Source: Tepidanaerobacteraceae bacterium
Lineage (GTDB): Bacteria > Bacillota > Thermosediminibacteria > Thermosediminibacterales > Tepidanaerobacteraceae
Direction: 5' to 3'
Assembly: GCA_029982615.1 (NCBI GenBank)
Contig: JARRBK010000019.1
Location: forward strand, 1 to 34,158
Length of the DNA stretch: 34,158 nucleotides
The position numbers were made by a program, and so were the translations under genes. Shown piece by piece: positions 2,432-22,975 of the stretch. A model generated the notes under the pieces. That model did no database searches. It was not told the DNA's origin and saw only the letters and a program-made list of their open reading frames with translations. The stretch's first letter is position 1. Each line of letters starts with the position of its first letter.

Positions 2432-3055
2432 TCAGCCATTCAATATCGCATCGAAAAGATTTAAAGGCATGAATTCTTTCTGCCCCAGGGCGAGCATATG
2501 ATAGTAAAGAAAAGCCACTTCCTCCACATAAATCAGTTTTATGAGCGCCTTTTCCAGGTCTTCGCCAACGGCAATGACTCCATGGTATTTTAACAGGCAC
2601 ACATCGGATTCTTTCATGGGTTCAACTATGGTTTGGGCAAGTTTCTTGCTCCCGGGAGGCGCAAACTCAGCCACTTTTACGGGTTTTCCGCCATAATGAA
2701 TAGCCTCTATGCTCACGGGAGGAATCTCTTTTCCCATGCATGCAAAAATGGTAGAATACCTGGAATGGGTATGGGCTACCCCTCCGGCTTCCGGCTTTAT
2801 TTTATACGCCGTAATGTGCATGGAAGTTTCTATTGATGGCTGAAGGTTCCCATCCACTATATTGCCTTCCATGTCCACTACGATTATTTTTTCAGGTGTA
2901 AGATCTTCCCGGGATATGCCCGACGGCGTTATATAAATAAGCTTTTCCTTTCGGTCTATCACGCTGAAATTGCCTGACTTGTGGCGGCACAGTTCCATTT
3001 GATCCGCCTTTTTAGCTATTTTCACCACTTCTTCTTTCATTTCGAGATTTATCAT
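2432..3055 (-). CDS. Class II aldolase/adducin family sugar-phosphate aldolase or epimerase
   Basis: The 207-residue protein belongs to the zinc-dependent class II aldolase family (L-fuculose-1-phosphate aldolase, L-ribulose-5-phosphate 4-epimerase). The phosphate-binding loop HKSGNFSV (residues 25-32), the Glu76 position, the zinc ligands His95 and His97 (AHTHSRYST) and His158 (KYHGVIAVG) are all present. The fuculose-phosphate aldolase subgroup seems likelier than the epimerase, but sequence alone does not fix the substrate. A GGAGGA site precedes the ATG. It is the last enzyme of the minus-strand carbohydrate locus and probably cleaves or epimerises the phosphorylated intermediate made by the upstream kinase or PTS. 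A perfect 18-bp palindrome (3076-3093) just upstream suggests separate control. Confidence 0.85.
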   Translation of the reverse strand: MINLEMKEEVVKIAKKADQMELCRHKSGNFSVIDRKEKLIYITPSGISREDLTPEKIIVVDMEGNIVDGNLQPSIETSMHITAYKIKPEAGGVAHTHSRYSTIFACMGKEIPPVSIEAIHYGGKPVKVAEFAPPGSKKLAQTIVEPMKESDVCLLKYHGVIAVGEDLEKALIKLIYVEEVAFLYYHMLALGQKEFMPLNLFDAILNG

Positions 3056-3075
3056 GAAAAAAATCCTCCTACTCT

Positions 3076-3093
3076 AAAATCAATCTTGATTTT
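3076..3093. promoter_or_regulatory. Perfect palindrome upstream of the aldolase gene
   Basis: AAAATCAA-tc-TTGATTTT is an 8+2+8 perfect inverted repeat ending about 20 bases before the aldolase start, just 5' of its ribosome site. It looks like a repressor operator, or a short hairpin in the leader. The binding protein is unknown. Confidence 0.4.
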
Positions 3094-3180
3094 GTGCAAT
3101 AAATCACTTTCCTGCCGTAGATGACCCGGCACCGCAGCTCTCTGCCGCTTTTTTTAAGAAGTCAGAAGTCGGAATAGAAG

Positions 3181-3201
3181 GAATTTGCGAGTCGCAAATT
3201 C
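3181..3201. repeat. Perfect 10+1+10 inverted repeat in an intergenic patchwork
   Basis: The arms GAATTTGCGA and TCGCAAATTC are exactly complementary around a single G. On either side are short repeats of the GAAGTC/CATCCGA type (3161-3177 and 3211-3230). No T run follows on either strand, so it is not a standard terminator. It may be a small dispersed intergenic element. Confidence 0.6.
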
Positions 3202-3246
3202 TAACTTAATCTGGCATCCGACATCCGATTGGTGGAGGTTTACCAT

Positions 3247-4584
3247 TTAGTCCTTGACAAGTGCCTTTATTTTTGGGACAGCCCCCATGAACTCTTCTTT
3301 TATTGAAGCGAGAGCTTCAGGGGTATCTCCTTCAAACCTCATGGTAATCATGGGCTCCGTAACCGAAATCCTGATAAGCCCCCAGCCCTTGGGGAATATC
3401 ACCCGCACTCCGTCCAGTGTATCGATGGGGTATTCTTTAAATCTTTCTTTTACGCTTTTTAAAAGTTCTCCTTTATCATCATAAGGATAAGGTATGCGAA
3501 TATCAGGGGTTATATAATAATCCGGTATCTGTGATGAAAGCAGGGACAATTTTACCCCCTTTGTATTCAATATTTCGCCCATCAGCAGGGCAGCGTAAAT
3601 CCCGTCATCGCCGGCAAGTTCCTTAAAAAAGTAATGGCCGCTGATTTCCCCCGCCATCACTGCATTCTGCATGAGAAAATTCCGCTTGATAAAGGCATGC
3701 CCGGATTTTTCCCTTATGGCGGTGCCCCCAGCTTTAAGAATTTCTTTTTCTACTATGGTGGAACATTTATGGTCATAGACTACTTTGCCGGGACCATATT
3801 TTTCAAATAAATGCTTTGCAAAAATTATTATGCCTCTTTCACTGGATAAAATATGGCCCTTTTCGTCTACAAAGGCAACTCTATCGCCATCTCCATCAAA
3901 GGCAATCCCTAGGTCCGCCTTTGTTTCAATAACCATATTTCGCAGATGTTCCAGATTTTCGGCAATGGCAGGATTGGGCTCCCGGTTTGGAAAATTTCCG
4001 TCGGGCTCGCAGAAAAGCGGTACCGTCTCGTATCCAAGTTCCGAAAATAGTCTCAAAGCAACCGGGCCGCATACCCCATTGCCTGCGTCGATTACAACTT
4101 TAAAATTACCTGAGATTGGTTTAAAGAGGCTTCTAATATATTTCCGGTATTCTTCCAGCATCGGATTATTCTCAATAGAGCCGTATCCAGGCTTGTAATC
4201 CTTACTTTTGGTCAATTTTTCAAGATACTCGATATCTTTTTCTTGCACAGGCAGTGTACCGAATGCTATCTTAAATCCGTTATAGCGGGCGGGGTTGTGG
4301 GATGCGGTCACCATGACCCCGGCGTATGTGTCAAGGCGGCGCTTTGCATAATAAAAAGCCGGTGTCGGCAGAGTACCGATATCGATTACTTTGCATCCGC
4401 TCATGGAAAGCCCCTTCATCAATTCCCGCTTCAGCGCGGGTGTGCTGAGTCTTACATCTCCGCCTACCGCCACACTTCTGCCTTCAATCATCGTGCCAAA
4501 AGCCCTGCCTATATTGAACGCATCGTCTGCTGTCAAATCCTTGCCATATGTTCCTCTAATATCACAGGCTTTAAATATGCTCAT
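3247..4584 (-). CDS. Phosphomannomutase/phosphoglucomutase
   Basis: The 445-residue enzyme is an alpha-D-phosphohexomutase that interconverts hexose-6- and hexose-1-phosphates through a phosphoserine. The active-site loop TASHNPARYNG has the phosphorylated Ser95. The magnesium loop DGDGDR is at 230-235, the sugar-binding loop is GEISGHYFF, and the C-terminal phosphate-binding part is near the end. Length is usual for the ManB/AlgC group. The ATG at 4584 follows an AGGAGG that overlaps the end of the upstream kinase gene, so the two are translationally close and co-transcribed. Its place in a polyol locus is unusual. It may feed hexose phosphates to cell-wall synthesis or act on a sugar-1-phosphate of the pathway. 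Confidence 0.9.
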   Translation of the reverse strand: MSIFKACDIRGTYGKDLTADDAFNIGRAFGTMIEGRSVAVGGDVRLSTPALKRELMKGLSMSGCKVIDIGTLPTPAFYYAKRRLDTYAGVMVTASHNPARYNGFKIAFGTLPVQEKDIEYLEKLTKSKDYKPGYGSIENNPMLEEYRKYIRSLFKPISGNFKVVIDAGNGVCGPVALRLFSELGYETVPLFCEPDGNFPNREPNPAIAENLEHLRNMVIETKADLGIAFDGDGDRVAFVDEKGHILSSERGIIIFAKHLFEKYGPGKVVYDHKCSTIVEKEILKAGGTAIREKSGHAFIKRNFLMQNAVMAGEISGHYFFKELAGDDGIYAALLMGEILNTKGVKLSLLSSQIPDYYITPDIRIPYPYDDKGELLKSVKERFKEYPIDTLDGVRVIFPKGWGLIRISVTEPMITMRFEGDTPEALASIKEEFMGAVPKIKALVKD

Positions 4585-4594
4585 AAAGACCTCC

Positions 4595-6046
4595 TCATGG
4601 GATGAAACCTTTTTGTTTCATAATGTGTTTAAATTTATTATATTTTTCTTCATAGATGCTTACAAAACATTGATCCGGCTGAATGACTTCCCCCGGCCTT
4701 ACCATATTCGAGGCAGCCTCTACAATATTGCTATAAACTGTTCTGGATGCGGCAATTACAGCGCTCCCCATGCATGGGTCGCTGATTTCCGGCTTCAGAA
4801 GGGTCTTGTTTAAAATGCCGGCTCTTATTTTCATCCAGATTTTGCTCCTGGTGCCGCCTCCAGTGACATAGACCTCATCGGATATTCTCGCTCCAAGATC
4901 TGCCAGCATGTCATAACACAGTCTTTCAAAAAGGCCAACGCCTTCAATATATCCTGCATAAAGTTCAATATCGTCTCTCGGATTCCCATCAATAAACCCT
5001 TCAGCTCCAGGATCTATGAAGGGAAATCTCTCTCCTTTCTTCACCAGAGGATACACTATCAGATTCGTAGGAAAATACTGCTCGGCTTTAATATCCCATT
5101 CTTTATAATCTATGCCGGGGAAAATTTTTTCAAGGCATTCACCGCCGGTGTTGCTGGCTCCGCCAGGCATCCAGAATCCTTCGGGGTGAAGGTGGGAATA
5201 TATCCTGCCCTGCCGGTCCTTGATCAAATCCCTTGTGATACCCTTTACCACCAGCGTAGTCCCCAGAATGGAATTCCATGTGCCTTCCTTTACAGCTCCA
5301 GAGGCCACCTGTCCCGCACACCCGTCGGTCATCCCAGCTACCACTGCTGTATCGGTGGAAAGCCCCGATTGTTCCGCAAACTCCTTATTTATATTCGCTA
5401 TCCTATACCCTGGCCTGATAACCTGCGGGAATTTTTCCATATCAAGACCCAATTTTTCGATGATAGCTTCCGGCCATTTGTAATCCACCAGGTCAAATCC
5501 TGTTTTAAGGGCATTTGAATGATCGGTAATATCGTAAACTCCGGTCATAACCCCGACAATGTAATCGGATTGATGAATAAACTTCCATGTATTGCGGTAC
5601 ACTTCCGGCAACTTCTCTTTAATCCAAAGTATTTTTGGCAGCGCAAAGGATGAGTTGAAGCTATAGCCAACTTTTTCAGAAAAATCGGCAGCCAGTCTTT
5701 GTATGTTCTTTGTCTCCTCCGTCGCCCTGGAATCATTGTACATAAGGGCATCTGTAAGGGGCTTTTTCTCCCTGTCAATGGGGATAACAGTGCCGGATGT
5801 GCCATCCACTGAGATAGCCTTGACCTCTGACAAATGGTATCCTTCTTTTTTTATTCCCTCAATTAATCTACAAAAACAAATCTTGAATTTTTTCTCCCAG
5901 TCGCCCGGATTTTGTTCCTTCCATCCGTTTTTCCTGCTAACGGATGGCTGCAGCGCCTCGTGGGCTGTAAAAATCATTTTTCCTCTTTCATCGACTGCTA
6001 TCGTGCGTATCCCCTGGGTTCCCACATCAATGCCGATGACAATCAC
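4595..6046 (-). CDS. FGGY-family carbohydrate kinase
   Basis: The 483-residue protein is an ATP-dependent sugar kinase of the FGGY family (xylulokinase, ribulokinase, gluconokinase, glycerol kinase). The N-terminal phosphate loop is GIDVGTQGIRT (residues 5-15). DGTSGT is at 81-86 and the catalytic Asp241 lies in GMTDGCAGQ. The C-terminal ATP-binding VTGGGTRSKIW and the closing DPCMGSAVIAA are clear. MYNDSRA near 102-108 recalls xylulokinases, but the substrate (xylulose, erythrulose, tagatose or another ketose) is not fixed. The GTG start at 6046 follows GGGGGAA. It lies 18 bases after the EIIB-like gene and 10 bases before the mutase, so it belongs to the operon. Confidence 0.88.
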   Translation of the reverse strand: MIVIGIDVGTQGIRTIAVDERGKMIFTAHEALQPSVSRKNGWKEQNPGDWEKKFKICFCRLIEGIKKEGYHLSEVKAISVDGTSGTVIPIDREKKPLTDALMYNDSRATEETKNIQRLAADFSEKVGYSFNSSFALPKILWIKEKLPEVYRNTWKFIHQSDYIVGVMTGVYDITDHSNALKTGFDLVDYKWPEAIIEKLGLDMEKFPQVIRPGYRIANINKEFAEQSGLSTDTAVVAGMTDGCAGQVASGAVKEGTWNSILGTTLVVKGITRDLIKDRQGRIYSHLHPEGFWMPGGASNTGGECLEKIFPGIDYKEWDIKAEQYFPTNLIVYPLVKKGERFPFIDPGAEGFIDGNPRDDIELYAGYIEGVGLFERLCYDMLADLGARISDEVYVTGGGTRSKIWMKIRAGILNKTLLKPEISDPCMGSAVIAASRTVYSNIVEAASNMVRPGEVIQPDQCFVSIYEEKYNKFKHIMKQKGFIP

Positions 6047-6064
6047 GTGAAAATTCCCCCGTCT

Positions 6065-6352
6065 TTACTTATTGTACTTCACTACTTCATCAATTACTTT
6101 TTCTGCTCCCATCCATGGATAAACAAGAGGCAGACCATTGACTACAGGAAGCGTCGTTTCCAGTTTTTTCGTGCCAACCAAAACAATCACATCGGGTTTT
6201 TCCTTTTGCTCGATTTCTTTTAAATCACTGGCAAATATATTGGCTGTTATAATCTCAACTTCCACTCCCTTTTTCTTGCATCCATCAATCAACTGCTTGG
6301 AAAGTTTGTCCGCCTTGGTGTCTGATGTCCCGCCCAGCAATAAAATTTTCAT
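6065..6352 (-). CDS. PTS EIIB (galactitol type)-like protein lacking the phospho-cysteine
   Basis: The 95-residue protein has the size and pattern of galactitol-type EIIB: MKILLLGG at the N-terminus, a hydrophobic DVIVLVG strand and the closing VVNGLPLVYPWMGAEKVIDEVV. True EIIB proteins carry CGTG after strand 1, where the Cys takes phosphate from EIIA. Here the matching residues are GGTS, with Gly7 in the Cys position. It therefore cannot pass phosphate through the usual thiol. A normal EIIB with ACGTG is encoded in the same locus at 11253-11540. This paralogue may regulate or bind a partner instead. The ATG has AAGGAG ten bases upstream. Confidence 0.7.
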   Translation of the reverse strand: MKILLLGGTSDTKADKLSKQLIDGCKKKGVEVEIITANIFASDLKEIEQKEKPDVIVLVGTKKLETTLPVVNGLPLVYPWMGAEKVIDEVVKYNK

Positions 6353-6433
6353 TTGTCATCAACTCCTTTGATTTATCATATATTTTCTTTGCCTCATATG
6401 CAATACGATTATATGATGTCGGCAAATAATCTT

Positions 6434-7246
6434 TCACGAAAGCAATTTCTGCAGAGCATATGCAACGCCGTCTTCATTATTTGTAGGGGCCACAAAATCA
6501 GCCATTTTCTTTACCTCTTCCGGAGCATTTCCCATCGCCACTCCTATCCCTGCAAATTCCAACATATCCATGTCATTAAAGTTGTCACCTATAGCCATTA
6601 TCTCATCTCTATCTATTCCCAATTTCGCAGATAATATTTTCAATGCTCTCCCTTTGGATGACTTTTTATTTATTACATCCAGATAACGTGGCCCTGATTT
6701 CAATATATTTACCTGACTGTCATACAATTTTTTCAGCGCAGCCATGAACTCATCCAGTGGCCTTTCTTCACCGGTTATTAATATTTTTGTGGGGTTTTTT
6801 TCCTCTTGTGCAACTAGCTCATTAATATCTTTTACTCTTATAGGAGTTACAAAATTGACATCGATGTTTACATGCATTGCAAAGTCATCATATCTCTCAT
6901 AATAACAGCAATCTCCATATAAGAGCGAGAGGCAAAGTCTTGGATCCCGCCTGCACATTGTGTTTATATCCTCCGCCACGCCCTTTGGCAAAGTATCGTG
7001 AAGTATCGTTTCCTTGCTAATGTTATGTTTTATATAAGCGCCGTTGTGAGATATCTGAAAACCCTCTATGCCAAGCATTTTCGCAAAATGTTCGGCCGCT
7101 ACATGGGGCCGACCGGTACAAAGTGCGACTAATATTTCTTTATCCATCACTTTTTTTATTGCTTTTACAGTTTGCTGCGATATGCTAAGATCATCTCGAA
7201 TGAGAGTCCCATCGATATCTATAGTTACAAGTTTCACGGTGGCCAC
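6434..7246 (-). CDS. HAD-superfamily Cof-type sugar phosphatase
   Basis: The 270-residue protein is a Cof/YidA-type haloacid dehalogenase-like hydrolase that removes phosphate from sugar phosphates. Motif I is DIDGTL with the nucleophile Asp9 and the acid/base Asp11. SHNGAYI follows, and the C-terminal motif is GDNFNDMDML, with KGRALKIL before it. The start is either the GTG at 7246 or the in-frame GTG at 7237; the latter has better ribosome-site spacing. It sits right after a terminator-like hairpin (7258-7290), so it should be expressed from read-through or an unseen promoter. In this locus it could drain a toxic phosphorylated intermediate. Confidence 0.88.
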   Translation of the reverse strand: MATVKLVTIDIDGTLIRDDLSISQQTVKAIKKVMDKEILVALCTGRPHVAAEHFAKMLGIEGFQISHNGAYIKHNISKETILHDTLPKGVAEDINTMCRRDPRLCLSLLYGDCCYYERYDDFAMHVNIDVNFVTPIRVKDINELVAQEEKNPTKILITGEERPLDEFMAALKKLYDSQVNILKSGPRYLDVINKKSSKGRALKILSAKLGIDRDEIMAIGDNFNDMDMLEFAGIGVAMGNAPEEVKKMADFVAPTNNEDGVAYALQKLLS

Positions 7247-7257
7247 CGCCTTTCTTT

Positions 7258-7290
7258 AAAAATCCCCGTTATTGAGGATAACGGGGATTT
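7258..7290 (-). terminator. Intra-operon terminator after the GpsA-like gene
   Basis: The arms AAATCCCCGTTAT and ATAACGGGGATTT are perfectly complementary around a 5-base loop. On the minus strand the hairpin is followed by TTT AAAG, giving a short T run. It lies between the GpsA-like stop and the HAD start, only about a dozen bases before the latter. Confidence 0.75.
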
Positions 7291-7314
7291 ATTGTCTTTT
7301 ATTAAGGTAATTTT

Positions 7315-8328
7315 TTAGTTGCTCCAGTAATCTTTTAATGCCTCGACGGCGGGTTTGCCCTCGTATAAAATCCTGTAAAGTTCTACCAGCAAAGAAACAT
7401 CGCTTAAGTTTAATTTTCCCTGTTGTTCAAGGGTTGCTGCCAGTTTATATCCCACTTTTGCCGCCGGGTATCCTTCTACGGTTTGATTTTTCATTTCTTC
7501 GACTGCTTCTTTCATGGTTTTGCCCTGCCCCAGCAGTTTCCCTAAAGTTCTATTCCTTCCCCCCTGGGATGTCACATAAAGGTCTCCGACACCGGCAAGC
7601 CCCAGAGCCGTTTCTACGTCTCCGCCTTTTGCCTTTACCAACGCAGCAAGTTCCATACATCCCCTGGCAATCAATGCTGCCTTTGGATTGTCCATATTTT
7701 CATACATTCCTTCACAAATTCCTATTGTTATAGCGTAAGAATTTTTCAAAGCTGCACAGATTTCAACCCCAATAATATCCTGAGTAACGTTCGACTTGAA
7801 GTATGGCGCTTTAAAAGCTTTTTGCAGAACTCTGGCGGCTTCAATATTTTTTGAGGCAAAAATTGCTTCGGAAAAAACTTCATTGGCAACTTCAATCGCT
7901 CTCAACGGGCCTCCGATTTTTACTACCGGAATATTTTTTTGTTGCCCGGCCAGGCAGTCTTCTATAATTTCCGACATGGTCATCAGGGATTCTTCCTCAA
8001 TACCTTTAGCAATGTTTGCTATGATAACATTCTCGTCAATATAACCTGAAATGGAATTGGTTATGTCTCGGATTCCATCGGATGTGACCGCCAGTATTAT
8101 AATACTGCTGTCCTGCAGTGCCTTTTCCAGTTCATCGGCCATAAAAAATTCCACGCTTTGAGGAATATCGGAATTTAATTTTTCACATCTTCCGGTAGCC
8201 CTGTAATTTTCAATAGTACTGGTATCCCACCTAGTACCCCATAATTTAACCTCATTTTTTTGTTTCGCCAAGTGAATTGCCAGAGCTGTTCCCATCACTC
8301 CTGCACCCAGTACAGTTACTTTGCCCAT
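7315..8328 (-). CDS. GpsA-like NAD(P)-dependent polyol-phosphate dehydrogenase
   Basis: The 337-residue protein belongs to the glycerol-3-phosphate dehydrogenase (GpsA) family. The N-terminal Rossmann loop is GAGVMGTALA (residues 8-17). The catalytic Lys lies in EICAALKNSYAI, and the C-terminal substrate region GLAGVGDLYVTSQGGRNRTLG matches GpsA. The usual GPSFAKE-type loop reads GGPLRAIE here, so substrate contacts may differ. It lies 3 bases after the RpiB-type gene inside a PTS polyol operon, not near lipid genes. I infer that it may oxidise a short-chain polyol phosphate of the pathway rather than make glycerol-3-phosphate for lipids. A housekeeping role cannot be excluded. Confidence 0.8.
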   Translation of the reverse strand: MGKVTVLGAGVMGTALAIHLAKQKNEVKLWGTRWDTSTIENYRATGRCEKLNSDIPQSVEFFMADELEKALQDSSIIILAVTSDGIRDITNSISGYIDENVIIANIAKGIEEESLMTMSEIIEDCLAGQQKNIPVVKIGGPLRAIEVANEVFSEAIFASKNIEAARVLQKAFKAPYFKSNVTQDIIGVEICAALKNSYAITIGICEGMYENMDNPKAALIARGCMELAALVKAKGGDVETALGLAGVGDLYVTSQGGRNRTLGKLLGQGKTMKEAVEEMKNQTVEGYPAAKVGYKLAATLEQQGKLNLSDVSLLVELYRILYEGKPAVEALKDYWSN

Positions 8329-8331
8329 GTC

Positions 8332-8796
8332 TTATCCCACCTTCTTTGTAGCCCTGTATTTCGCATCTATTTCATTCATTCTTTCAACCTTTGGTATAGA
8401 CCTGCCTCCAGAAAAATTGCTTTCAAGCCACACAGCCACCAGCGATTTGGCAAGTTCAGGGCCGATTACCCTCGAACCCATTGTCATTATCTGGGCATCG
8501 TTGCTTTTTCTGGCTCTTTCGGCAGAGTATACATCATGGCAGCATGCCGCACGCACACCTGGAATTTTATTTGCGGTAATCGCCATCCCTATTCCCGTTC
8601 CGCAGATTAATATTCCTCTATCATAATTACCTTCAGCCACCGCCAGTGCCACTTTCTCCGCCACATCGGGATATAGCACAGGATCTTTCGAGTAACACCC
8701 CATATCATCAAAGTCTATACCTTTTTCTTTTAAAAATTCCATTATCACCTGTTTTAGATCAAATCCGGCTTCATCGCAACCTATTGCCAGTTTCAT
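8332..8796 (-). CDS. rpiB: RpiB/LacAB-family sugar-phosphate isomerase
   Basis: The 154-residue enzyme is of the RpiB/LacA/LacB family, which interconverts aldose and ketose phosphates. Key visible parts are the N-terminal GCDEAGFDLK, the catalytic-base loop ICGTGIGMAITANK with Cys65, and HDVYSAERARKSNDAQI. Ribose-5-phosphate isomerases usually have DHAG at the start; this protein has DEAG, as I recall for LacA. That suggests a substrate other than ribose-5-phosphate, such as a tetrulose or hexulose phosphate. A GGAGAG ribosome site precedes the ATG at 8796. It is nearly fused to the following GpsA-like gene (3-base gap), so the two probably act in the same route. Confidence 0.87.
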   Translation of the reverse strand: MKLAIGCDEAGFDLKQVIMEFLKEKGIDFDDMGCYSKDPVLYPDVAEKVALAVAEGNYDRGILICGTGIGMAITANKIPGVRAACCHDVYSAERARKSNDAQIMTMGSRVIGPELAKSLVAVWLESNFSGGRSIPKVERMNEIDAKYRATKKVG

Positions 8797-8814
8797 TTGT
8801 TTTCACTCTCCTAT

Positions 8815-8860
8815 TATTAGTTTATATAAGTCAATTTTATTAGTTTATATAAGTCAATTT
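8815..8860. repeat. Exact 23-bp tandem duplication at the end of the SDR gene
   Basis: The 23-base unit TATTAGTTTATATAAGTCAA(TTT) occurs twice head-to-tail (8815-8837 and 8838-8860) without a mismatch. The copy nearest the SDR gene contains its TGA stop codon; the other is pure spacer before the RpiB-type gene. Confidence 0.9.
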
Positions 8861-9603
8861 GAAAATGTCCGGCCGCCGTCCACCAAAATAAACTGACCGG
8901 TTATAAAGCCGCTGACATCCGATGCCAGAAATACCGCCAATTCCGCCACATCCTTCGCTGTCCCCATTCTCCTCACAGGAATCTTTTTTATAATAGCCTT
9001 CTTGTATTCCTCGCCATACAGCTTATCCAGCAACGGAGTATCTATACTCCTGGGACCAATGGCATTAACCGTAATATTATAACCCGCCAGTTCGTTGGCA
9101 AGACTTCGGGTAAGCCCTATTTGGCCTGCTTTGGAAGCGGCATAATGCGGCCCGCCACCCGACCCCGTTATAGCAGAGCCTGAAGATATGATTACAATCC
9201 TCCCATAATTTTGTCTAATCATAGCCTTACTTACTGCTTTTGTAATTAGGAAGGTACCGGTCAGATTAACATTCAATATTTTATTCCACATTTCCAGGGT
9301 TACATCGGCCAGTGCACATTTTGTAGATATTCCCGCGCTATGCACAAGAATGTCTATCTTGCTATGGTTTTTTAATATTTCTTCAACGGTTTTTTCCACA
9401 TCGCTTTCAATTGTTAAATCCACATGATAAAAATAAGCTTTTCCGCCAGCAGCATTGATATCTTCCACCACTTTTTGGCCGTCTCCCTCATTAATATCCA
9501 TACAGAACACTTCACAACCTTTAGAGGCCAGGGAGATTGCCACTTCCTTCCCTATGCCGCTGCCGGAACCGGTTATCACTGCTGTATTGCCTGTAAAACT
9601 CAT
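8854..9603 (-). CDS. Short-chain dehydrogenase/reductase (polyol or ketose type)
   Basis: The 249-residue protein is a classical SDR oxidoreductase. The cofactor loop is TGSGSGIG (11-18), with Asp36 after strand beta-2, which favours NAD(H). The usual NNAG is HSAG here. The catalytic tetrad is Asn113, a serine at 140-141 (IISSGSA), Tyr154 and Lys158 (YAASK), and the C-terminus GFITGQFILVDGG is typical. Length is standard. It lies 31 bases after the zinc alcohol dehydrogenase gene in the PTS operon, so it likely oxidises or reduces a polyol, ketose or their phosphates (compare sorbitol-6-phosphate and gluconate 5-dehydrogenases). The ATG at 9603 has AAGGAGATATCC before it. Confidence 0.88.
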   Translation of the reverse strand: MSFTGNTAVITGSGSGIGKEVAISLASKGCEVFCMDINEGDGQKVVEDINAAGGKAYFYHVDLTIESDVEKTVEEILKNHSKIDILVHSAGISTKCALADVTLEMWNKILNVNLTGTFLITKAVSKAMIRQNYGRIVIISSGSAITGSGGGPHYAASKAGQIGLTRSLANELAGYNITVNAIGPRSIDTPLLDKLYGEEYKKAIIKKIPVRRMGTAKDVAELAVFLASDVSGFITGQFILVDGGRTFSN

Positions 9604-9634
9604 TTTGGATATCTCCTTAATATCTTTTATTGAT

Positions 9635-10669
9635 TTACGAATCCTCTCGAATCATTACCTTTAAGTATTTTTCTTTTGGATTGGATGCAAGATTTATGGC
9701 TTTCCCCAAATCCTTTAAATCAAAGACATGTGTGATCATTTCTCTTGCTTTTACTTTTTTGTCGTGAATCATCTTCAGAGCTTCAATATACTCAAAAGGA
9801 GTGGAAGAATAAGTTCCTATAATCGATATTTCATCTTCAAAAAATCTGCGCGAATTGATATTAATCATGGGATTCTTGTCAAAAGGCGAAAAAACTATAA
9901 TGCTTCCTCCCCTTCTCACAACTTCAACCGCTTGAGTAAGCAAGCTGGAAACCCCTGCAGAAATTATGACTAAATCGACGCCCAACCCTCCGGTAAGTTC
10001 TTTAATTTTTTCAGCCAAATCTTCTTTCGCAACATTTATTGCAAAATCCATGCCAAATTCCAGAGCCTTTTGCAGCCTGAAATCCGATATATCGCTGATA
10101 AATACTTTTCCGGCTCCCTGGGCTTTAGCCAGCTGGCCGTGGATTATTCCAATCTGACCTGCTCCCATGATCAGGACCGTATCTTCAGGCATTATTTTCA
10201 CATATTTCTGGCCGTGGATACAGCATGCCACCGGTTCAGCCATAGCAGCCTCTTCATACGTCATATCATCAGGAATTTTATGCATCGAATGCTTTACATT
10301 TAGAGCGGGTATGCGGATGTATTCCGAAAATCCTCCTGGATCTATATTAGTGGTCTTAAACTGCTGGCATAAAGTGTGGTGACCGTGGAGACAATAATGA
10401 CAGGTAAAACATGGAACGTGATGTGCAACAAATATCCTGTCGCCCACTTTAAAATCCGTCACATTTTTACCCACCTCTACAATATCACCGGAAACCTCAT
10501 GACCCAGCACGATTGGGGGAGTAACGGTTTTAGCCACAGCTTTGTGGACATCGGTTCCGCACAATCCGCATGCTCTCATTTTAATTAAAACTTCATCATC
10601 GTTGATTTTTGGAACCTGAAGGTCTTCATACCTGAAATCTCCTACATCATAAAAAACACTTGCTTTCAT
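9635..10669 (-). CDS. Zinc-dependent alcohol dehydrogenase (sorbitol/threonine dehydrogenase type)
   Basis: The 344-residue protein is a medium-chain dehydrogenase. Catalytic zinc ligands are Cys37 (CGLCGTD), His57 and Glu58 (GHE). Four structural-zinc cysteines are at 87, 90, 93 and 101, and the NAD loop is GAGQIG with an acidic residue after beta-2. It resembles galactitol-1-phosphate, sorbitol or threonine dehydrogenases. Next to a galactitol-type PTS, oxidation of the incoming polyol phosphate to a ketose phosphate is the natural role (inference). I chose the ATG at 10669 because it has AGGAG eight bases upstream and the family begins with MKA. An 18-residue upstream extension in frame has no such site. 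Confidence 0.88.
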   Translation of the reverse strand: MKASVFYDVGDFRYEDLQVPKINDDEVLIKMRACGLCGTDVHKAVAKTVTPPIVLGHEVSGDIVEVGKNVTDFKVGDRIFVAHHVPCFTCHYCLHGHHTLCQQFKTTNIDPGGFSEYIRIPALNVKHSMHKIPDDMTYEEAAMAEPVACCIHGQKYVKIMPEDTVLIMGAGQIGIIHGQLAKAQGAGKVFISDISDFRLQKALEFGMDFAINVAKEDLAEKIKELTGGLGVDLVIISAGVSSLLTQAVEVVRRGGSIIVFSPFDKNPMININSRRFFEDEISIIGTYSSTPFEYIEALKMIHDKKVKAREMITHVFDLKDLGKAINLASNPKEKYLKVMIREDS

Positions 10670-10691
10670 TATAACCACTCCTGAAGCAGAT

Positions 10692-11159
10692 TTATTTTCT
10701 TTTTTTTGTTTTTTTGCTATCATATTGCTTTTTTGTATTAAAATATTTCTCTTTTTCTTTAAAGAAAGCTAGAAGTTCATCATGCCCTAGTATATTGTTG
10801 CTGATCCAGTAGCGCCCCCTCAGAACGCTGGGTTCTCCTAACCTTACCAGATATTTGTCGCTGAAAATAAATTCGTTGACATTTATTTTCTTTATTTTAG
10901 ACAGGTCATAAGAATGTTTCATTCCAAAACTGAAAAAATGTATATTGTCGCCATCTATTATTACTTTATGAGGAGTGTTTAAGGTTATAAAAGTCGATAT
11001 AATGACTACCGGCATCACTACAATCAGCAGTCTGTACAGAATATTTTCCGGGAAATATATGCGTTGGTAGATGGACCACACAAAAACACCGATTATTAAA
11101 ATTGCAGGAATTAATTGGGATATAAGATAATAAGAATACTTATACTTATAAACCTTCAA
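10692..11159 (-). CDS. Small membrane protein with PH-like cytoplasmic domain, unknown function
   Basis: I do not recognise a named family. The 155-residue protein has two hydrophobic segments near residues 12-30 and 42-60. A soluble, beta-rich stretch follows (HKVIIDGDNIHFFSFG, then YDLSKIKKINVNEF), resembling a bacterial PH-like domain of the YdbT type. The tail is a very basic, Lys-rich end. The TTG start at 11159 has GAGGAGG seven bases upstream, which decides the start. It lies inside the PTS operon, after a strong hairpin and before the alcohol dehydrogenase, and may be an accessory membrane factor. Confidence that it is a gene is good; its role is open. Confidence 0.72.
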   Translation of the reverse strand: MKVYKYKYSYYLISQLIPAILIIGVFVWSIYQRIYFPENILYRLLIVVMPVVIISTFITLNTPHKVIIDGDNIHFFSFGMKHSYDLSKIKKINVNEFIFSDKYLVRLGEPSVLRGRYWISNNILGHDELLAFFKEKEKYFNTKKQYDSKKTKKRK

Positions 11160-11201
11160 GCGATATCCTCCTCAGTGAGGCATTTTTAAAATATGAAACC
11201 T

Positions 11202-11245
11202 AAGCAAATTCACTCTAGCTGTAATAAGCTAGAGTGAATTTGCTT
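11202..11245 (-). terminator. Strong hairpin between gatB and the downstream genes
   Basis: Perfect 19-bp arms (11202-11220 and 11227-11245) enclose a 6-base loop. On the minus strand no immediate T run follows (AGGTTTCATATTTT), so full termination is doubtful. It more likely stabilises the upstream gatACB transcript or lowers expression of the enzymes downstream. Confidence 0.6.
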
Positions 11246-11252
11246 CTTTAAA

Positions 11253-11540
11253 TTACTTATCTCCTAAAGCTGCTACGATTTTTTCAATATCTTTATCGAC
11301 GCCTACTCCGGATAAAAATGATATGCTTCTGATGACTGGTGTGGAACCACAGTTCTGCAAAGTGGTTGTGCTAACAATTAGATCATAGTTCGGAGCCTTT
11401 GCAGGAGCTTCGGCAGCCTTGCACTGTTCAACCAATACATCATAGCCCCGTGCTTTCAAAGCTTCTTCCACTTTCTTTGCGACCATGGTAGAGGTCGCAA
11501 TTCCTGTTCCACATGCGACTAAAATTCTTTTTTTAGCCAT
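11253..11540 (-). CDS. gatB: PTS galactitol-type transporter subunit EIIB
   Basis: The 95-residue EIIB takes phosphate from EIIA on a cysteine and passes it to the sugar during transport through EIIC. The motif ILVACGTGIATSTMVAKKVEE carries the phospho-Cys near residue 9. The closing GVGVDKDIEKIV is typical. I place the start at the ATG at 11540, since TTGGAGG lies a few bases upstream; an earlier in-frame TTG is part of that ribosome site itself. It lies 33 bases after gatC and completes the EIIA-EIIC-EIIB set. Confidence 0.93.
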   Translation of the reverse strand: MAKKRILVACGTGIATSTMVAKKVEEALKARGYDVLVEQCKAAEAPAKAPNYDLIVSTTTLQNCGSTPVIRSISFLSGVGVDKDIEKIVAALGDK

Positions 11541-11573
11541 GATTAGGACCTCCAAAAGTTTTAATAATTTTTA

Positions 11574-12944
11574 TTATTTGCTTGCATTAATTTCTTCTGC
11601 ATATTGCTTCCTTATATCGTTTCTTACCCACCACCACAGTGCTGCGTAAACAATGGCACAAACTATGGCTGCGACAAATATCGCAGGGCTATCGGGTTGC
11701 AATATTCTTATGATAATCCACGGTACCACATGGGATCCTAGATCTATACCGCTTATCATATTGGCTCCTTCAGGGAATTGGAAACCGACCGCTTTGCCCA
11801 TGGTGGTTGCCAATTCTGCAAAGTTTGTGGCTATGAAGAATATTATCGCCATACAAATGATCGAATTCAGAATACCTTTTACGATGTTGCCTCTTGATAC
11901 AGCGGTAGCCCAAATTACTATGAACGGCAGAACAGCCAGGTCGGCGAATGGAAGCATGCGGTTGTACGGCAGGACCACAGCCATCAAAATTGTTATCGGT
12001 ACCATTATCAGCGCAACAGCCATGCCGGCAGGATGCCCTATTACAATGGCCGCATCCAGTCCGATATAAACTTCTTTGCCAGGAAATCTCTTCTGGATGA
12101 ATTCACGGGCGCCTTCGGACAGAGGTATTAGCCCTTCCATTAAAATAGCCACCATTTTGGGCATCAGAACCAATACCGACGCCATCTGAACGCCCAGCGT
12201 CAATATTCCCTTGAGGTCGTACTTCCCTAAAACACCCATTATCAAACCGAGGATAAGACCCATCAAAAGAGGTTCGCCGAAAAGACCGAATCTCTTCTGA
12301 ACATCTTCCGGGCTGGCATGAATATTGTTCAAACCCGGTATTTTGCTTTCTATCTTTTCCAGCACATACATAAGCGGAGCCCAACCTACAGTTTCCGTAT
12401 GGGGCAGCGATACGCCTGGGAGGCCGAAGTGATGCTCCAGAACCGGTGCGGTCCAATCCGCCAGTTTGAAAATGACTATTGCCGTCAGGCAACCCACCAA
12501 AATGCCGAAGAACATATTGTGGGAAGCATAGTAAGCAATTGAACCGGCGAATATGAAATGCCAGTAATTCCACAAATCCACGTCCATTGTTTTTGTAAAA
12601 TTAATAGCCAGCAGTATAACATTTAATACGAGTACGATGGGAATCAACAATGGAGCAACAGGTGTCCCAAACGAGATGGCGGCACCAATTGGCCAGCCCA
12701 CGTCAGGAACGTCAAGATTTAAACCCAGGGATTTGACCAGGGCTTGGGCTGCGGGTCCTAAAGCGCTCGTCAGCAAACCGATTACCAGATTAATCCCTAC
12801 AAAACCAACGCCAATGGTAAGACCTGCTCTGAAAGATTTCTTAAATCCCTGTCCCAAAACCATGCCAAATATTGTTAAAATAATTGGCAACATGACCGAG
12901 GGACCCAAACCTAAAACAAAATCAACCGCTGCTTTAATGCTCAT
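11574..12944 (-). CDS. gatC: PTS galactitol-type transporter subunit EIIC
   Basis: The 456-residue integral membrane permease is of the galactitol EIIC family, with about ten or more hydrophobic segments through its length. It moves the polyol across the membrane as it is phosphorylated. Recognisable parts are the N-terminal AAVDFVLGLGPSVMLPI, TMDVDLWNYWHFIFAG, and the YIGLDAAIVIGHPAGMAVAL loop. The ATG at 12944 is chosen because AAGGAGGG stands five bases before it; an in-frame GTG at 12950 would touch that site. The gene sits between gatA and gatB under the sigma-54 promoter. Related carriers move galactitol, arabitol, ribitol or xylitol, so the substrate stays open. Confidence 0.93.
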   Translation of the reverse strand: MSIKAAVDFVLGLGPSVMLPIILTIFGMVLGQGFKKSFRAGLTIGVGFVGINLVIGLLTSALGPAAQALVKSLGLNLDVPDVGWPIGAAISFGTPVAPLLIPIVLVLNVILLAINFTKTMDVDLWNYWHFIFAGSIAYYASHNMFFGILVGCLTAIVIFKLADWTAPVLEHHFGLPGVSLPHTETVGWAPLMYVLEKIESKIPGLNNIHASPEDVQKRFGLFGEPLLMGLILGLIMGVLGKYDLKGILTLGVQMASVLVLMPKMVAILMEGLIPLSEGAREFIQKRFPGKEVYIGLDAAIVIGHPAGMAVALIMVPITILMAVVLPYNRMLPFADLAVLPFIVIWATAVSRGNIVKGILNSIICMAIIFFIATNFAELATTMGKAVGFQFPEGANMISGIDLGSHVVPWIIIRILQPDSPAIFVAAIVCAIVYAALWWWVRNDIRKQYAEEINASK

Positions 12945-13049
12945 AAACACCCTCCTTATTTTTTTGCATTATGCTTTTTATTATACTGAAATTCTTTATT
13001 CTTACTTTTATCCATCACCTCCTTAATTAAATAGTGAAGTGGATTTTAT

Positions 13050-13550
13050 TTAATAGTTTCCAGCCATATCCATTTTTTCTGCGTTGTCATCATCCTTTGC
13101 CGTCATAAGCCTTAAAACAGTATCCACATCTTTTGAAACCGATAGTTTCAATAAAAGCTCTTTGTTTTGAAATACTTCCATTAAATCCTGCAACAATTCT
13201 AATTGAACATTCGGATCTGTTATTGCCAGCATAAAAATTATTTTAACGTTTACTTTTTCCTCGGGATTCCCCATCACATTGAATTGCACAGGGTTTTTAA
13301 GTATTGCTACAGCAATAGCAGGTTTTATAACATGTTTTATATCCGCATGCGGTATTGCTACTCCAACACCTTCTGTAGGAAGGCCTGTAGGAAACACCTT
13401 TTCTCTCTCCAAAATCGCCTCTAAATAACTTTCTTTCGCATACCCTTTAGAAATCAATAAACTTGCCAGCTTTTTTATTATTTCCTCTTTTCCCTCTGCT
13501 TCTGCATCGATTTGTATGAGTTCTGGATTTAAAAAGTTTAATTGTGGCAT
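13050..13550 (-). CDS. gatA: PTS EIIA component, fructose/mannitol/galactitol type
   Basis: The 166-residue protein is a PTS EIIA type-2 domain. It accepts phosphate from HPr on the histidine in GVAIPHADIKHV (about residue 68) and hands it to EIIB. The flanking EREKVFPTGLPTEG and the helix after VKIIFMLAI fit the family. The ATG at 13550 follows GAAGGAGG. It is the first gene after the -24/-12 promoter at 13688-13703, with a leader of about 125 bases. It may also phosphorylate the PRD and EII domains of the neighbouring activator, linking transport to transcription (inference from LevR-type systems). Confidence 0.93.
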   Translation of the reverse strand: MPQLNFLNPELIQIDAEAEGKEEIIKKLASLLISKGYAKESYLEAILEREKVFPTGLPTEGVGVAIPHADIKHVIKPAIAVAILKNPVQFNVMGNPEEKVNVKIIFMLAITDPNVQLELLQDLMEVFQNKELLLKLSVSKDVDTVLRLMTAKDDDNAEKMDMAGNY

Positions 13551-13687
13551 TATTTAGCCTCCTTCAAATTGTGGAAAGTTTTAAGCTGTTTTTTGATTAG
13601 TAAAACTTAAATATTTGGAGTGTTGGGCGAAATAAATATAACTCAATGAGATTTGGCATGAAATTTCAATTTCACAAATAATAATCA

Positions 13688-13703
13688 AGCAAATACCGTA
13701 CCA
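13688..13703 (-). promoter_or_regulatory. Sigma-54 (-24/-12) promoter of the gat PTS operon
   Basis: On the minus strand TGGTACGGTATTTGCT matches the TGGCAC-N5-TTGCW consensus with one change, and the GG and GC pairs are exactly ten bases apart. It lies between the stop of the sigma-54 activator and gatA. Transcription should begin near 13677. Confidence 0.85.
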
Positions 13704-13718
13704 ATTCAAATGGCAGGT

Positions 13719-16700
13719 TTAGTTGCGACTTATTATATATTCCAATATAGCTTTCTTGACCTCATCGCCATCCTTTAATAGACTCAACTTATAAATCAAA
13801 TCTTCATCGTTTACTACATAAAATAAATCATTCAATATATCCTTCGAATCCTCTTTCAATGCCAGCATAAAAACAACGTCTGCCTCTTTATCTGCCGACC
13901 ATGCAACCGGTTCTTTCAAAAAAGCTATAGCGATGGCAGGCTTTAATACATTTTCTGAATTGCCATGCGGTATGGCTATATGGTTTCTTATGAGCGTAGG
14001 ACCCATTACTTCTCGCTTGTAAACATCAAGCAGATATTTTTCATTGACATACCCTTTTTTGAGCAACACTTCCACAAGCCCGTCTATTGCATCGTTTTTT
14101 GTAGCAAAATCAGCCTGAACCAGAATCAAATCGTTGAATAAAACTTCTGCCAGCGGCAAAACGACTGATTTTTGAATCGGATGTGAATGTGGCTTGCTTT
14201 TTAATTTCAGCACGTCTCTGAGCTTTTCTATCGCTGTGCCGCTTATCAATTCCTCAACAGAAATAAAAGGAATGTCACTTTCTTTCGGATTCACAGTCCC
14301 AACAATAGCTGCCAGGCATCTTTCAGCTTTTATTTTTTCAATTTGTTTTGAACCGTCTTCTCTGCCAATTATGCCTATGGGAATTATATCTGCACTTTCC
14401 AAAATATCAGGAATCATTTTCTCGATGAGTTTTTTCAATTTTATGGCAGTTCCTTCTCCAGTAATACACAATGTAACAATCGCCTTTTTATATTCTCTTT
14501 TATCCTCTATTTTTAAGTCTTCGACAGGGATAAACCTTCCAAGGCCCACCTTATCCTTATCAATATTTGCCACAATTTCATCCAAATCAGTATCAGGCAG
14601 TATGGCCCGCCGCACTGCTTCGAGCACCATGATGGTATCTACCCTGCCGACGGTTTTTGTCTGGATTCCGGTTTTCTGGGTGATGATTTCTCCAAAAGTT
14701 ATAAGGGAACCCATGTCTACTAATAAAAGAACTCCTTTGCCTTCATCGATCTTCCGCACAACTTCCATGGCTTTTTGAAGCGCTGATTCTGGCTTTTCAT
14801 CCAGAGACATCTCAATGCCCACCGCATGGTTTACGCCCAGCAGCCTGTTTGCAACTTCCACCATGCCTTGAGCCACATGGCCGTGGGTAAGCACCACCAC
14901 GCCTACCCGGCCTTTTTTTACATCTGTCGGATGGGTTATAGTACGAAGATACATGGCCACAAATCCGACTTCGTCTTCCGGCATTTTGTAATCAGTTATT
15001 TTTTCTACGGCTTCCACCATCTCTTTTGCCACTCTGTATTCTAGCCTGTATTCATTTTTAACCTTTTCTAGCTGCGGATTTATTATGGGTTTGTTATGCT
15101 GCAGCCGTTCCAGCGTCGCGCTCAAGTGAATGGCCAGGCAGTAGAACAGGTGGCTGTCCATCTTGCCCAGTTTTTTTTCGGCGATTTTAACCATATTCTC
15201 AGCCATGTTCACCACTTTTTCACCCACTATTCCTACCAGTTCTTGTTTTCCTAAGAGCTGCCGGTTTGTCTCAAATTGCTTTACCAGCTGCTGAAACCTT
15301 ATTTCCAGTTCGCCTCCAATTACCCTGTTTATAACCTCCTGGGTCAATCCCTGTTCTTGAAGTTCCTGATATTTCTCCTCAATATATTGATAGATTTCCT
15401 GCGGAAAAATATATAAGTCCTCTTTCGGCATGTTTTTAGTATTCATCTGTCCGGGACTTACAACAAAGTCGCCTTTCAGGTATATTTCAGTTTCGGGGCT
15501 GCGGTTCTGTATCTTGAGAAGCCCCCTCCGTGCATGTATGGGCAAATCAATAAGGTCTATTTCAATTTTCTGCTGTTGCCCGCCTACATAGGTTAAAAAA
15601 CCTCTTGCGCAGGCCACCTGTATATCGCTCCTGAGTTGCCCGATATTTCCCGGGCAATCATAGAGCAGCAAAGCTCTCATCGCCTCCTGGGTTACTTTTA
15701 TTGGTACACCTATTCTGTCTGCCTCTTTGCCAAAAAATTCCTTAATGATGTTATACCTCTCCAATATAGGCCGTGTGGAGAGCGGTGGAAGTTCAATTAT
15801 CATCGGGATTCTTCTTCTAAAGGTCAAAAGAAGCGAAGATTCTATATCTTCAGTGGTAGCGGCAATTATTAGGACGTTGGCAGATCTGACGGTCTCGGTT
15901 TCCCCCATACGGCGGAATTTGCCCTTGTCCATTAAATAATAAAGCAGTTCCTGCCCTTCAGGGGGGAGACGGTGCACTTCGTCAAGGAAAAGGATTCCTC
16001 CATCGGCTTTTTCCACCAGACCTTCTTTAGCTGCATCCGCTCCTGTGTATGCTCCTTTAACATGGCCGAAAAGCTGGGAAAGAAGAAGCTGAGGGTTTTC
16101 TGCATAATCCGCACAGTTGAATATAACAAAAGGGGCATTTTTCGGAAGCCTCCCCGATTCTATAGCAAAATTGTACATGGCTTCAGCTAAATTGCTCTTT
16201 CCAACTCCGGTAGGTCCCAGTATGAGTGTATGAAGGCCGTGTGGGGGATAAAGGATTGCAGCTTTAGCCTGCTGTATTTGCGGTTTCAAGCTTCCGTCAT
16301 AACCTATGATTCTTTCAAAGGCTTTCGACGCTATACTGTTGTTACTCATAATGCCATGAAGAGTTTCATTTTTTCCGTTATCCCGAATTTCTTTTTTCGT
16401 ACTCGTTAAAGATTTATCATCAATTCTTATAACATAATCATTTTTTTTCAGGCTTTGCCTTATCTCCTTTGCCATCTGTGAGATTATAAACCTAGAGACA
16501 TTAAACCCCTGCCTATTAATTGCTCTGGTTAGCTCTCTTTCAGAAATATTAGGGTTTTTTGTTATCAAGTCCTTCAATGCGCTCATAAGAAAAGGCTTTC
16601 TTCTTTCCCTCGAATCCGGTATGCCCAATTCACCCCGCAATACGGTTACCTCGTCTCTCCTGGCACCCAACATGCCAGCCAGTTGATCATCAGTATAAGG

Positions 16701-16751
16701 GTTCTTTTTATCCTCAGACTTTATGATTTGGACAAGGCGTTCTTTAATCAT
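13719..16751 (-). CDS. LevR-like sigma-54 activator with PRD, EIIA and EIIB domains
   Basis: The 1010-residue protein is a PTS-regulated enhancer-binding activator. In order: an N-terminal helix-turn-helix region (about 1-110); an AAA+ domain with Walker A GPTGVGKS (179-186), the sigma-54 contact loop GAYTGA (233-238) and Walker B GGILFLDE; one PRD (about 507-605, AIHLS); a mannose-type EIIA domain with LTHGH (His623); an EIIB-like domain with TLCITGEG (Cys762); and a C-terminal fructose/mannitol-type EIIA with IAIPHGNS (His929). Classical LevR ends in a second PRD, which I do not see. The ATG at 16751 has GAGGTG six bases upstream; an earlier in-frame GTG does not. Its target is surely the gat promoter just downstream. 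Confidence 0.92.
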
Positions 16752-16777
16752 AGAAATCACCTCTTTTCAACATTTTA

Positions 16778-16793
16778 TGCAATAGTCATGCCA
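16778..16793 (-). promoter_or_regulatory. Sigma-54 (-24/-12) promoter of the activator gene itself
   Basis: TGGCATGACTATTGCA on the minus strand fits TGGCAY-N5-TTGCW with the correct ten-base spacing. The predicted start near 16767 leaves a 16-base leader that contains the GAGGTG ribosome site of the ATG at 16751. The geometry is consistent. Confidence 0.75.
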
Positions 16794-20945: not shown

Positions 20946-21066
20946 CTCAATACCCCCTGTTCAAATTTTTTCAATGGGATTGTGATCGAGCTATTTTATA
21001 CTATTATTCACCTCCCCAAATTATAATAGATAACTTTGCTAATAATTATATTATACATTATATTTT

Positions 21067-21082
21067 TACAAATTACATACCA
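21067..21082 (-). promoter_or_regulatory. Weak sigma-54-like promoter for the alanine symporter
   Basis: TGGTATGTAATTTGTA on the minus strand keeps the -24 GG and the ten-base spacing, but has GT instead of GC at -12. It is supported mainly by the enhancer-like dyad about 70 bases upstream. Confidence 0.4.
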
Positions 21083-21135
21083 GTATTTTATTTTACAATT
21101 TTATTGCTGCTACATTAATTATGTTGACTTTAAAA

Positions 21136-21162
21136 TGGAACTTTTGGTTTCCAAAGTTTCCA
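21136..21162. promoter_or_regulatory. Enhancer-like dyad between the symporter and activator genes
   Basis: TGGAAC (21136-21141) and two TTTCCA half-sites (21148-21153, 21157-21162) form a long imperfect inverted repeat. The same TTTCCA/TGGAA halves make up the two palindromes upstream of ald, so this is probably a binding site of the adjacent activator. Confidence 0.5.
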
Positions 21163-21228
21163 TCAATGCAGGATATGTAAAATTTAATGTCGAATAGATA
21201 TTTATATCCTGGTCGTGGGGGTGAAGTT

Positions 21229-22773: not shown

Positions 22774-22774
22774 A

Positions 22775-22808
22775 TTTCCATGTGGAACTTTTAATTTCCA
22801 TATGGAAA
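22775..22808. promoter_or_regulatory. Paired upstream activator palindromes of ald
   Basis: TTTCCATGTGGAAC (22775-22788) and TTTCCATATGGAAA (22795-22808) are two near-identical palindromes with centres exactly 20 bases apart, two helical turns. They lie about 110 and 130 bases upstream of the predicted ald start, the usual place for enhancer sites of a sigma-54 activator. Confidence 0.8.
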
Positions 22809-22883
22809 TTATTCTTTAAGCTTTAATTGTCATTTTTGCGCCATTGCGCGCTAAAAACCTGCTTTCTGCACGTTTTTAATCTC

Positions 22884-22899
22884 TGGCACACTTCTTGCA
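22884..22899 (+). promoter_or_regulatory. Sigma-54 (-24/-12) promoter of ald
   Basis: TGGCACACTTCTTGCA matches TGGCAC-N5-TTGCW exactly. Transcription should begin near 22911, giving a leader of about 65 bases before the ATG at 22976. Confidence 0.9.
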
Positions 22900-22975
22900 T
22901 ATATTTTTTCTACAATAAATATTGACTAAAGTTAAAGTAAAATGAACTCAACGACTTTCAGAGGAGGAAAAAACA

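Follow-up and report, generated by a model that had tools for sequence, protein, structure and literature searches.

We propose that a single gene cluster on the minus strand of the contig analysed here, running from position 16760 to 2432, encodes a sigma-54-controlled phosphotransferase system (PTS) route for a four-carbon polyol, either erythritol or a threitol; judged from sequence, we give this a probability of about 0.6. The contig (C30; 34,158 nucleotides, referred to as the window) belongs to a 1.82-Mb, 68% complete assembly (G000) of an uncultured, anaerobic Tepidanaerobacteraceae bacterium. Gene classes were assigned with Pfam and NCBIfam profile models over the window proteins, and the scores were far above chance. 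The cluster starts with an activator gene, followed by genes for the PTS components IIA, IIC and IIB of the galactitol (Gat) type, a small open reading frame (ORF) termed orf155, a zinc-dependent dehydrogenase, a short-chain dehydrogenase/reductase (SDR), an RpiB-family isomerase, a GpsA-family dehydrogenase, a HAD phosphatase, a second small ORF (orf95), an FGGY kinase, a phosphohexomutase and a class II aldolase. All gene classes named in an earlier note on this DNA are present in this region; the cluster additionally holds orf155 and orf95, and the genes called RpiB and GpsA there are non-housekeeping subtypes. The gene order is kept in the complete sister genome G005 (one 3.4-Mb contig) and, up to the end of its contig (DUMA01000033.1), in G009 ('Thermoanaerobacterales bacterium'), the two relatives used for comparison. 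According to our reading of translated ORFs, the G005 cluster also has two-subunit transketolase genes (TktN-TktC) between the HAD and orf95 genes, and upstream of the activator gene in both relatives lies an operon with an L-fucose/D-arabinose-isomerase-like gene and an ABC transporter.

The isomerase and the GpsA-like dehydrogenase

The earlier note suggested a tetritol or a pentitol as the substrate. A short-chain polyol remains the best description, and the choice is narrowed to four carbons by the subtype of the RpiB-family isomerase (8332..8796, minus strand) and by its co-occurrence with the GpsA-like gene. Both the residue table and the trees assign this isomerase to the EryI/DerI type. 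In place of the canonical His10, His99, His134 and Arg137 (E. coli numbering) it has E, S, S and K, and Cys66 is kept. It therefore fails the residue test for a canonical RpiB, and with these four positions replaced a role in ribose-5-phosphate conversion is disfavoured; a canonical RpiB is encoded by the same genome on contig C45. The window isomerase is 49% identical to this housekeeping RpiB and 66-68% identical to Listeria and Pasteurella proteins, the genes of which adjoin DhaK/DhaL and TIM-family genes together with tkt and tal/fsa. Other named relatives come from the erythritol locus of R. johnstonii, from DhaKL loci of Salmonella, Alicyclobacillus and Pseudalkalibacillus, from a Klebsiella locus with PdxA and a four-carbon-acid kinase, and from loci of Pantoea, K. 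variicola, Gemmobacter and Rubrobacter.

In two trees a branch with 100/99 support puts the window isomerase with the isomerases of erythritol and erythrulose loci, apart from canonical RpiB. Housekeeping RpiBs and the RpiB of a Listeria Gat-PTS locus (L117), which we take to be the D-arabitol/xylitol locus, lie together on the opposite side of this branch. On the side of the window isomerase S99 and S134 are found in 29/29 sequences and K137 in 28/29, whereas the seven sequences of the canonical side have His99 (7/7), His134 (6/7) and Arg at 137. Studies of RpiB from Leishmania and other organisms have linked furanose ring opening to His102 and His138, the counterparts of residues 99 and 134 in E. 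coli, and have assigned the residues matching 10, 133 and 137 to the phosphate (PMC4783025). Since erythrose-4-phosphate cannot form a furanose, the loss of the ring-opening histidines would fit a four-carbon (C4) substrate. For SqwI of the sulfo-transketolase pathway, a member of the same Pfam family (PF02502), a C4 sugar has likewise been proposed as the substrate (PMC9594981). Taken together, these data favour the view that the window protein is a non-canonical RpiB, predicted to be a D-erythrulose-4-phosphate isomerase. As a separate observation, a cluster of a two-subunit transketolase, a C4-type RpiB, a probable PHP-domain protein and a protein of ~395 aa, often with a class II FBA, recurs at L238, L242, L243, L246-L248, L250 and L112, and perhaps represents another C4 pathway.

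Only 3 bases separate the isomerase gene from that of the GpsA-family NAD(P)-dependent dehydrogenase (7315..8328, minus strand; PF01210/PF07479). This protein has the GpsA fold domains and retains the catalytic and phosphate-site residues (Lys108, Lys195, Asp249 and Arg258/Asn259), with His143 changed to Arg. Position 143, beside the active site, is Arg or Lys in 16/16 PTS-linked proteins and His in 26/27 housekeeping GpsA; Met12, Cys191, Ala192, Tyr198 and Gly257 likewise separate the two sets. The tree splits PTS-linked GpsA-like proteins from housekeeping paralogues with 100/100 support. A housekeeping role is disfavoured by this separation and by the presence of two GpsA matches, and hence a separate gpsA, in both G005 and G009. 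Close relatives of the protein occur in G005 and G009, and 14 genomes of a second class encode more distant ones; a scan of named genomes returned mostly housekeeping GpsA of Gemmiger and Eubacterium, none with PTS neighbours. In all 16 intact loci (3 near the window and 13 of the second class) the GpsA-like gene is adjoined by a LevR-type activator and Gat IIA, IIB and IIC.

To relate this gene to the isomerase, 381 second-class genomes were searched with a profile for the C4-type isomerase, which left a clean gap between 239.6 and 203.8 bits. The isomerase was detected in 16 genomes, namely in 14/14 with the GpsA-like gene and in 2/367 without it, both exceptions being from the same genera as the carriers (Fisher p ~1e-23 by genome and ~1e-8 by genus, with counts that come mostly from five genera). 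It is this linkage that favours the GpsA-like protein as the most likely candidate for a tetritol-phosphate dehydrogenase. The gene for the second-class isomerase is usually part of a DeoR-(Tal)-TktN-TktC operon, and a G1PDH-like gene and a Gut-type PTS are often found next to it.

Several neighbouring arrangements deserve mention in their own right. At L206, L207, L041, L089 and L090 a G1PDH(AraM)-like dehydrogenase accompanies a Gut-type PTS in the vicinity of the C4-type isomerase operon, the Gat-PTS/GpsA unit or both. It is possible that the Gut-type unit is a second entry for the mirror-image tetritol phosphate, so that in these related genomes the GpsA-type enzyme may be paired with a Gut-type PTS and a G1PDH-type dehydrogenase. 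In one genus a gene for a DXR-like (DRL) oxidoreductase (L098:12364-13656; also L097, L099 and L205) adjoins both the Gat-PTS/GpsA and the Gut-PTS/G1PDH units, which hints at a branched tetritol substrate there, for example of the 2-C-methylerythritol type. A Rubrobacter plasmid locus (L138) has a C4-type RpiB together with a GpsA-family gene and two genes each for FGGY kinases and G1PDH-like proteins, and is probably a tetritol cluster of Actinomycetota.

Regulation, PTS and the remaining genes

Sigma-54 control, already postulated in the earlier note, gains support from the activator domains, from -24/-12 sites kept in two relatives and from rpoN, which was found in the source genome. The activator (13719..16760, minus strand) has Pfam Sigma54_activat, PRD, EIIA-man and PTS_EIIA_2 domains and thus the AAA+ sigma-54 and PTS-responsive modules of the LevR/DagR type; it scores 496 bits on the DagR model, under the 1400 cut-off, and is 84% identical in G005 and 81% in G009. 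One -24/-12 site, TGGTACGGTATTTGCT (13688..13703, minus strand), matches the consensus with one mismatch and lies between the activator gene and that of IIA; the other, TGGCATGACTATTGCA (16778..16793, minus strand), is located just 5' of the activator gene. Both are kept in G005 and G009 amid diverged flanking DNA. Because a consensus scan of the window with two mismatches allowed gave 26 sites against 18 expected, which is near chance, the argument is based on position and conservation. Elsewhere in the window, 19584-24100 holds a sodium:alanine symporter, a PrdR/TyrR-like sigma-54 activator and an alanine dehydrogenase. A -24/-12 site without mismatches is located there at 22884-22899, and the genes are likely a separate sigma-54 operon for alanine use.

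The PTS genes, all on the minus strand, make up a complete Gat-family set. EIIA (13050..13550) is of the Gat/fructose type (PF00359, 134 bits). EIIC (11574..12950) matches PF03611 with 309 bits and TIGR00827 with 472 bits, below the cut-off of 542, and is 97% identical in G005 and G009. EIIB (11253..11540; PF02302, 58 bits) has its phosphorylatable Cys in VACGTGIATST according to the alignment; its ORF opens at 11555, and the ATG at 11540 is the likely start. Three more Gat-type PTS loci are present in G000 (L113, L114 and L115 on contigs C63, C49 and C67); in our own reading of the ORFs, genes of the tagatose/amino-sugar type lie on C67, and C63 encodes a PfkB kinase along with a class II aldolase.

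Between the PTS and dehydrogenase genes lies orf155 (10692..11159, minus strand), a small, likely membrane protein with a hydrophobic N-terminal half and no Pfam match, kept in G009 and broken over two frames in G005. Two intergenic hairpins are also conserved on this strand. One follows IIB (11202..11245), with 19-bp arms and a stem near-identical in three genomes. The other, CCCCGTTATT...AATAACGGGG, follows the GpsA-like gene (7260..7290), has a short T run and is likewise kept in three genomes; it is possibly a terminator or attenuator. Their positions suggest graded expression or two transcription units, of which the first, comprising the PTS, dehydrogenases and isomerase, may be ended or weakened by the GpsA-side hairpin.

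Of the other two dehydrogenases in this first block, the zinc-dependent medium-chain enzyme (9635..10669, minus strand; PF08240 and PF00107; ORF opening at 10723, likely start at 10669) scores 151 bits on the galactitol-1-phosphate 5-dehydrogenase model, the cut-off of which is 550. The nearest named relatives of the SDR (8854..9603, minus strand; PF13561, 219 bits) are SDRs from tetritol-type loci with 36-38% identity. The cluster may have two entry points, as considered in the earlier note, and the genes beyond the hairpin may form a second module. They encode, on the same strand, a Cof-type HAD phosphatase (6434..7246; TIGR00099, 208 bits, above the cut-off of 137), orf95 (6065..6352), an FGGY carbohydrate kinase (4595..6046; PF00370, 151 bits; XylB model 233 bits, below the cut-off of 380), a phosphohexomutase family protein with four PGM_PMM domains (3247..4584) and a class II aldolase (2432..3055; PF00596, 162 bits). 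The orf95 gene, which precedes that of the kinase, is 92% identical in G005; its product has no Pfam match, resembles Gat IIB (hhalign probability 93.5) and is without the active-site Cys. Class II aldolases of the FucA type have Glu at the catalytic position, and enzymes of the AraD type have Asp. The window aldolase has the FucA-type Glu (PSIET), and its identity as an AraD-type epimerase is consequently disfavoured.

The proposed route and its alternatives

We infer the particular tetritol, the order of steps, the site of oxidation and the roles of the HAD phosphatase, FGGY kinase, mutase and aldolase. EIIABC-Gat would take up and phosphorylate the tetritol, yielding tetritol-4-phosphate. 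Oxidation to D-erythrulose-4-phosphate would be the task of an NAD(P) dehydrogenase that recognises the phosphate. The GpsA-like protein is the most likely candidate, although a polyol-phosphate-type zinc enzyme could also account for this step; the zinc and SDR enzymes may act on other stereoisomers. The EryI/DerI-type isomerase would then form D-erythrose-4-phosphate, which transketolase would feed into the pentose phosphate pathway. The LevR-type activator would turn the operon on when its PRD and EIIA domains sense PTS traffic. In known routes, erythrulose-1-phosphate is converted to D-erythrulose-4-phosphate by a TIM-type isomerase, LerI or EryH (PMC10733421). No second TIM that could complete the window route in this way was found in G005, G009 or G196, all of which have a single TIM; therefore oxidation should yield the 2-keto-4-phosphate directly. 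It is tempting to go further and suggest, tentatively and at well below even odds, that this is the first PTS-fed tetritol pathway, in which a GpsA-family tetritol-4-phosphate 2-dehydrogenase and an EryI-type isomerase suffice, bypassing kinase, epimerase and TIM-type isomerase.

A number of observations weigh against the tetritol route. The catalytic geometry of GpsA would favour a ketone beside the carbon that bears the phosphate. The product would then be erythrulose-1-phosphate, whose further conversion calls for the TIM-type isomerase that was not found in G005, G009 and G196. The window GpsA-like protein is only ~37% identical to those of the second class, and the tree gives no single clade of the window trio and the second-class proteins, so that separate recruitments may be involved; moreover, five genera dominate the co-occurrence counts. 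The window isomerase reaches 185.9 bits on NF051858 (D-erythrulose-4-phosphate isomerase), a model named for rhizobial sequences, and thus stays below the 240 cut-off; a broad RpiB subfamily model scores it slightly higher (193 bits), and the Rhizobium isomerase forms a long branch in the tree. Finally, there is no transketolase gene in the window cluster itself.

Of the competing explanations, the one that falls only a little short of an even chance is that the cluster houses two routes. In one, the PTS, dehydrogenase and isomerase would process a tetritol; in the other, a ketose such as D-ribulose or L-fuculose would be handled separately by the FGGY kinase, mutase and aldolase. The first of these is compatible with the tetritol route. 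The hairpin divides the blocks in all three genomes, the short gap between the isomerase and GpsA-like genes binds these two together, and the L-fucose/D-arabinose-isomerase-like operon adjoins the cluster in G005 and G009. However, the blocks share a strand and are tightly spaced, and one DhaKL locus (L237) unites an FGGY kinase, a class II aldolase and a C4-type isomerase. Because such a combination exists, the kinase, mutase, HAD phosphatase, orf95 and aldolase could serve tetritol use too.

A pentitol PTS route appears unlikely. Here a pentitol phosphate would be oxidised by the zinc or SDR dehydrogenase to a pentulose-5-phosphate, and RpiB would interconvert ribulose- and ribose-5-phosphate ahead of transketolase, as proposed for D-arabitol and xylitol in Listeria. 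The closest named Gat-PTS loci (Listeria, Enterococcus and Lactobacillaceae) do hold two zinc dehydrogenases, tkt, and rpe or phosphoketolase, and pentitols have been predicted as substrates of PRD-type sigma-54 regulons in clostridia (as cited in PMC6615313). Yet the window isomerase differs in type from that of the Listeria pentitol locus and is without the ring-opening histidines, rpe is missing, and the GpsA-like gene tracks the C4-type isomerase.

About as unlikely is aldol cleavage, in which the GpsA-like enzyme would oxidise PTS-derived erythritol-4-phosphate to erythrulose-1-phosphate and the class II aldolase would split this into dihydroxyacetone phosphate and formaldehyde, leaving the isomerase on a side branch. 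The conserved GpsA phosphate-binding and catalytic residues, the FucA-type Glu and the failure to find in G005 a TIM-type isomerase for erythrulose-1-phosphate are in line with it, FucA-type aldolases handle erythrulose-1-phosphate, and cleavage has been suggested for erythritol catabolism in Propionibacterium and Sinorhizobium (PMC10733421). But the aldolase gene is far downstream, past two hairpins, several loci of the second class showed no aldolase in the vicinity of the GpsA-like gene, and the conserved link with the isomerase would be left unexplained. A sulfosugar (sulfo-transketolase) pathway, with the isomerase as SqwI and TktN/C as SqwGH, can be rejected: despite the shared Pfam family and C4 substrate of SqwI (PMC9594981) and the two-subunit transketolase within the G005 cluster, the PTS and phosphate-dependent dehydrogenases would be pointless, and the cluster has no sulfoquinovosidase, SqvD or SqwF (PF00465).

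Relation to known polyol systems

The cluster shares Gat-type EIIABC and a zinc dehydrogenase with the galactitol pathway (gatYZABCD). Nevertheless, in agreement with the earlier note, this is not the standard galactitol set: profile models found no GatYZ-type or LacC-type genes and no tagatose-6-phosphate kinase in the cluster, and with the GatD cut-off unapproached the galactitol pathway was rejected. That note had also asked whether orthologous loci are tied to one known polyol route; those we found are uncharacterised. The Listeria D-arabitol/xylitol locus is similar in having Gat IIABC, zinc dehydrogenases and an RpiB-family gene, but has a BglG-type regulator, two zinc dehydrogenases, Rpe and a canonical RpiB (H10, H99, H134, R137), and is without a GpsA-like gene or SDR. 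The window cluster does not combine a canonical RpiB, Rpe and two zinc dehydrogenases. LevR/DagR-type sigma-54 PTS operons likewise have a PRD/EIIA-domain activator beside a PTS operon with -24/-12 promoters; however, their PTS is of the mannose type, whereas that of the window is of the Gat type and its orthologue group is not among the assigned ones.

Among tetritol pathways, the erythritol route of Brucella and Rhizobium (EryA, EryB, EryC, EryH, EryI; R. johnstonii pRL12 ery) also uses an EryI-type RpiB-family isomerase to reach erythrose-4-phosphate, and in both systems the polyol phosphate is oxidised by a glycerol-phosphate-dehydrogenase-like enzyme, as proposed here for the window. The differences are that the window has a PTS instead of separate transport and kinase, an NAD(P)-dependent GpsA-family enzyme instead of GlpD-family EryB, and sigma-54 control. 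Neither an EryC epimerase nor an EryH TIM-type isomerase was found in the window cluster, EryC having been sought in the cluster and not genome-wide. The pathways of Mycolicibacterium smegmatis for D/L-threitol and erythritol (as cited in PMC10733421 and PMC12780249) similarly combine a dehydrogenase set with a DerI-type isomerase leading to erythrose-4-phosphate. In that species, however, oxidation acts on the free tetritols and a kinase adds the phosphate afterwards, whereas the window cluster has no DhaK-type kinase and phosphorylation would accompany uptake. According to a 2025 paper, there are no reports of transporter/kinase sets or PTSs for four-carbon sugars (PMC12780249). We found no description of an erythritol PTS in the open-access literature, and similar loci may exist in prior art beyond it, including the clostridial 'pentitol' sigma-54 regulons cited in PMC6615313.

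If the tetritol route is correct, it would explain how strict anaerobes can use erythritol or threitol for one phosphoenolpyruvate, by a short enzyme set leading to erythrose-4-phosphate. It would also suggest a function for GpsA paralogues and 'RpiB' genes that at present carry housekeeping annotations, and the S99/S134 signature would provide a simple test for re-annotating C4-type isomerases.

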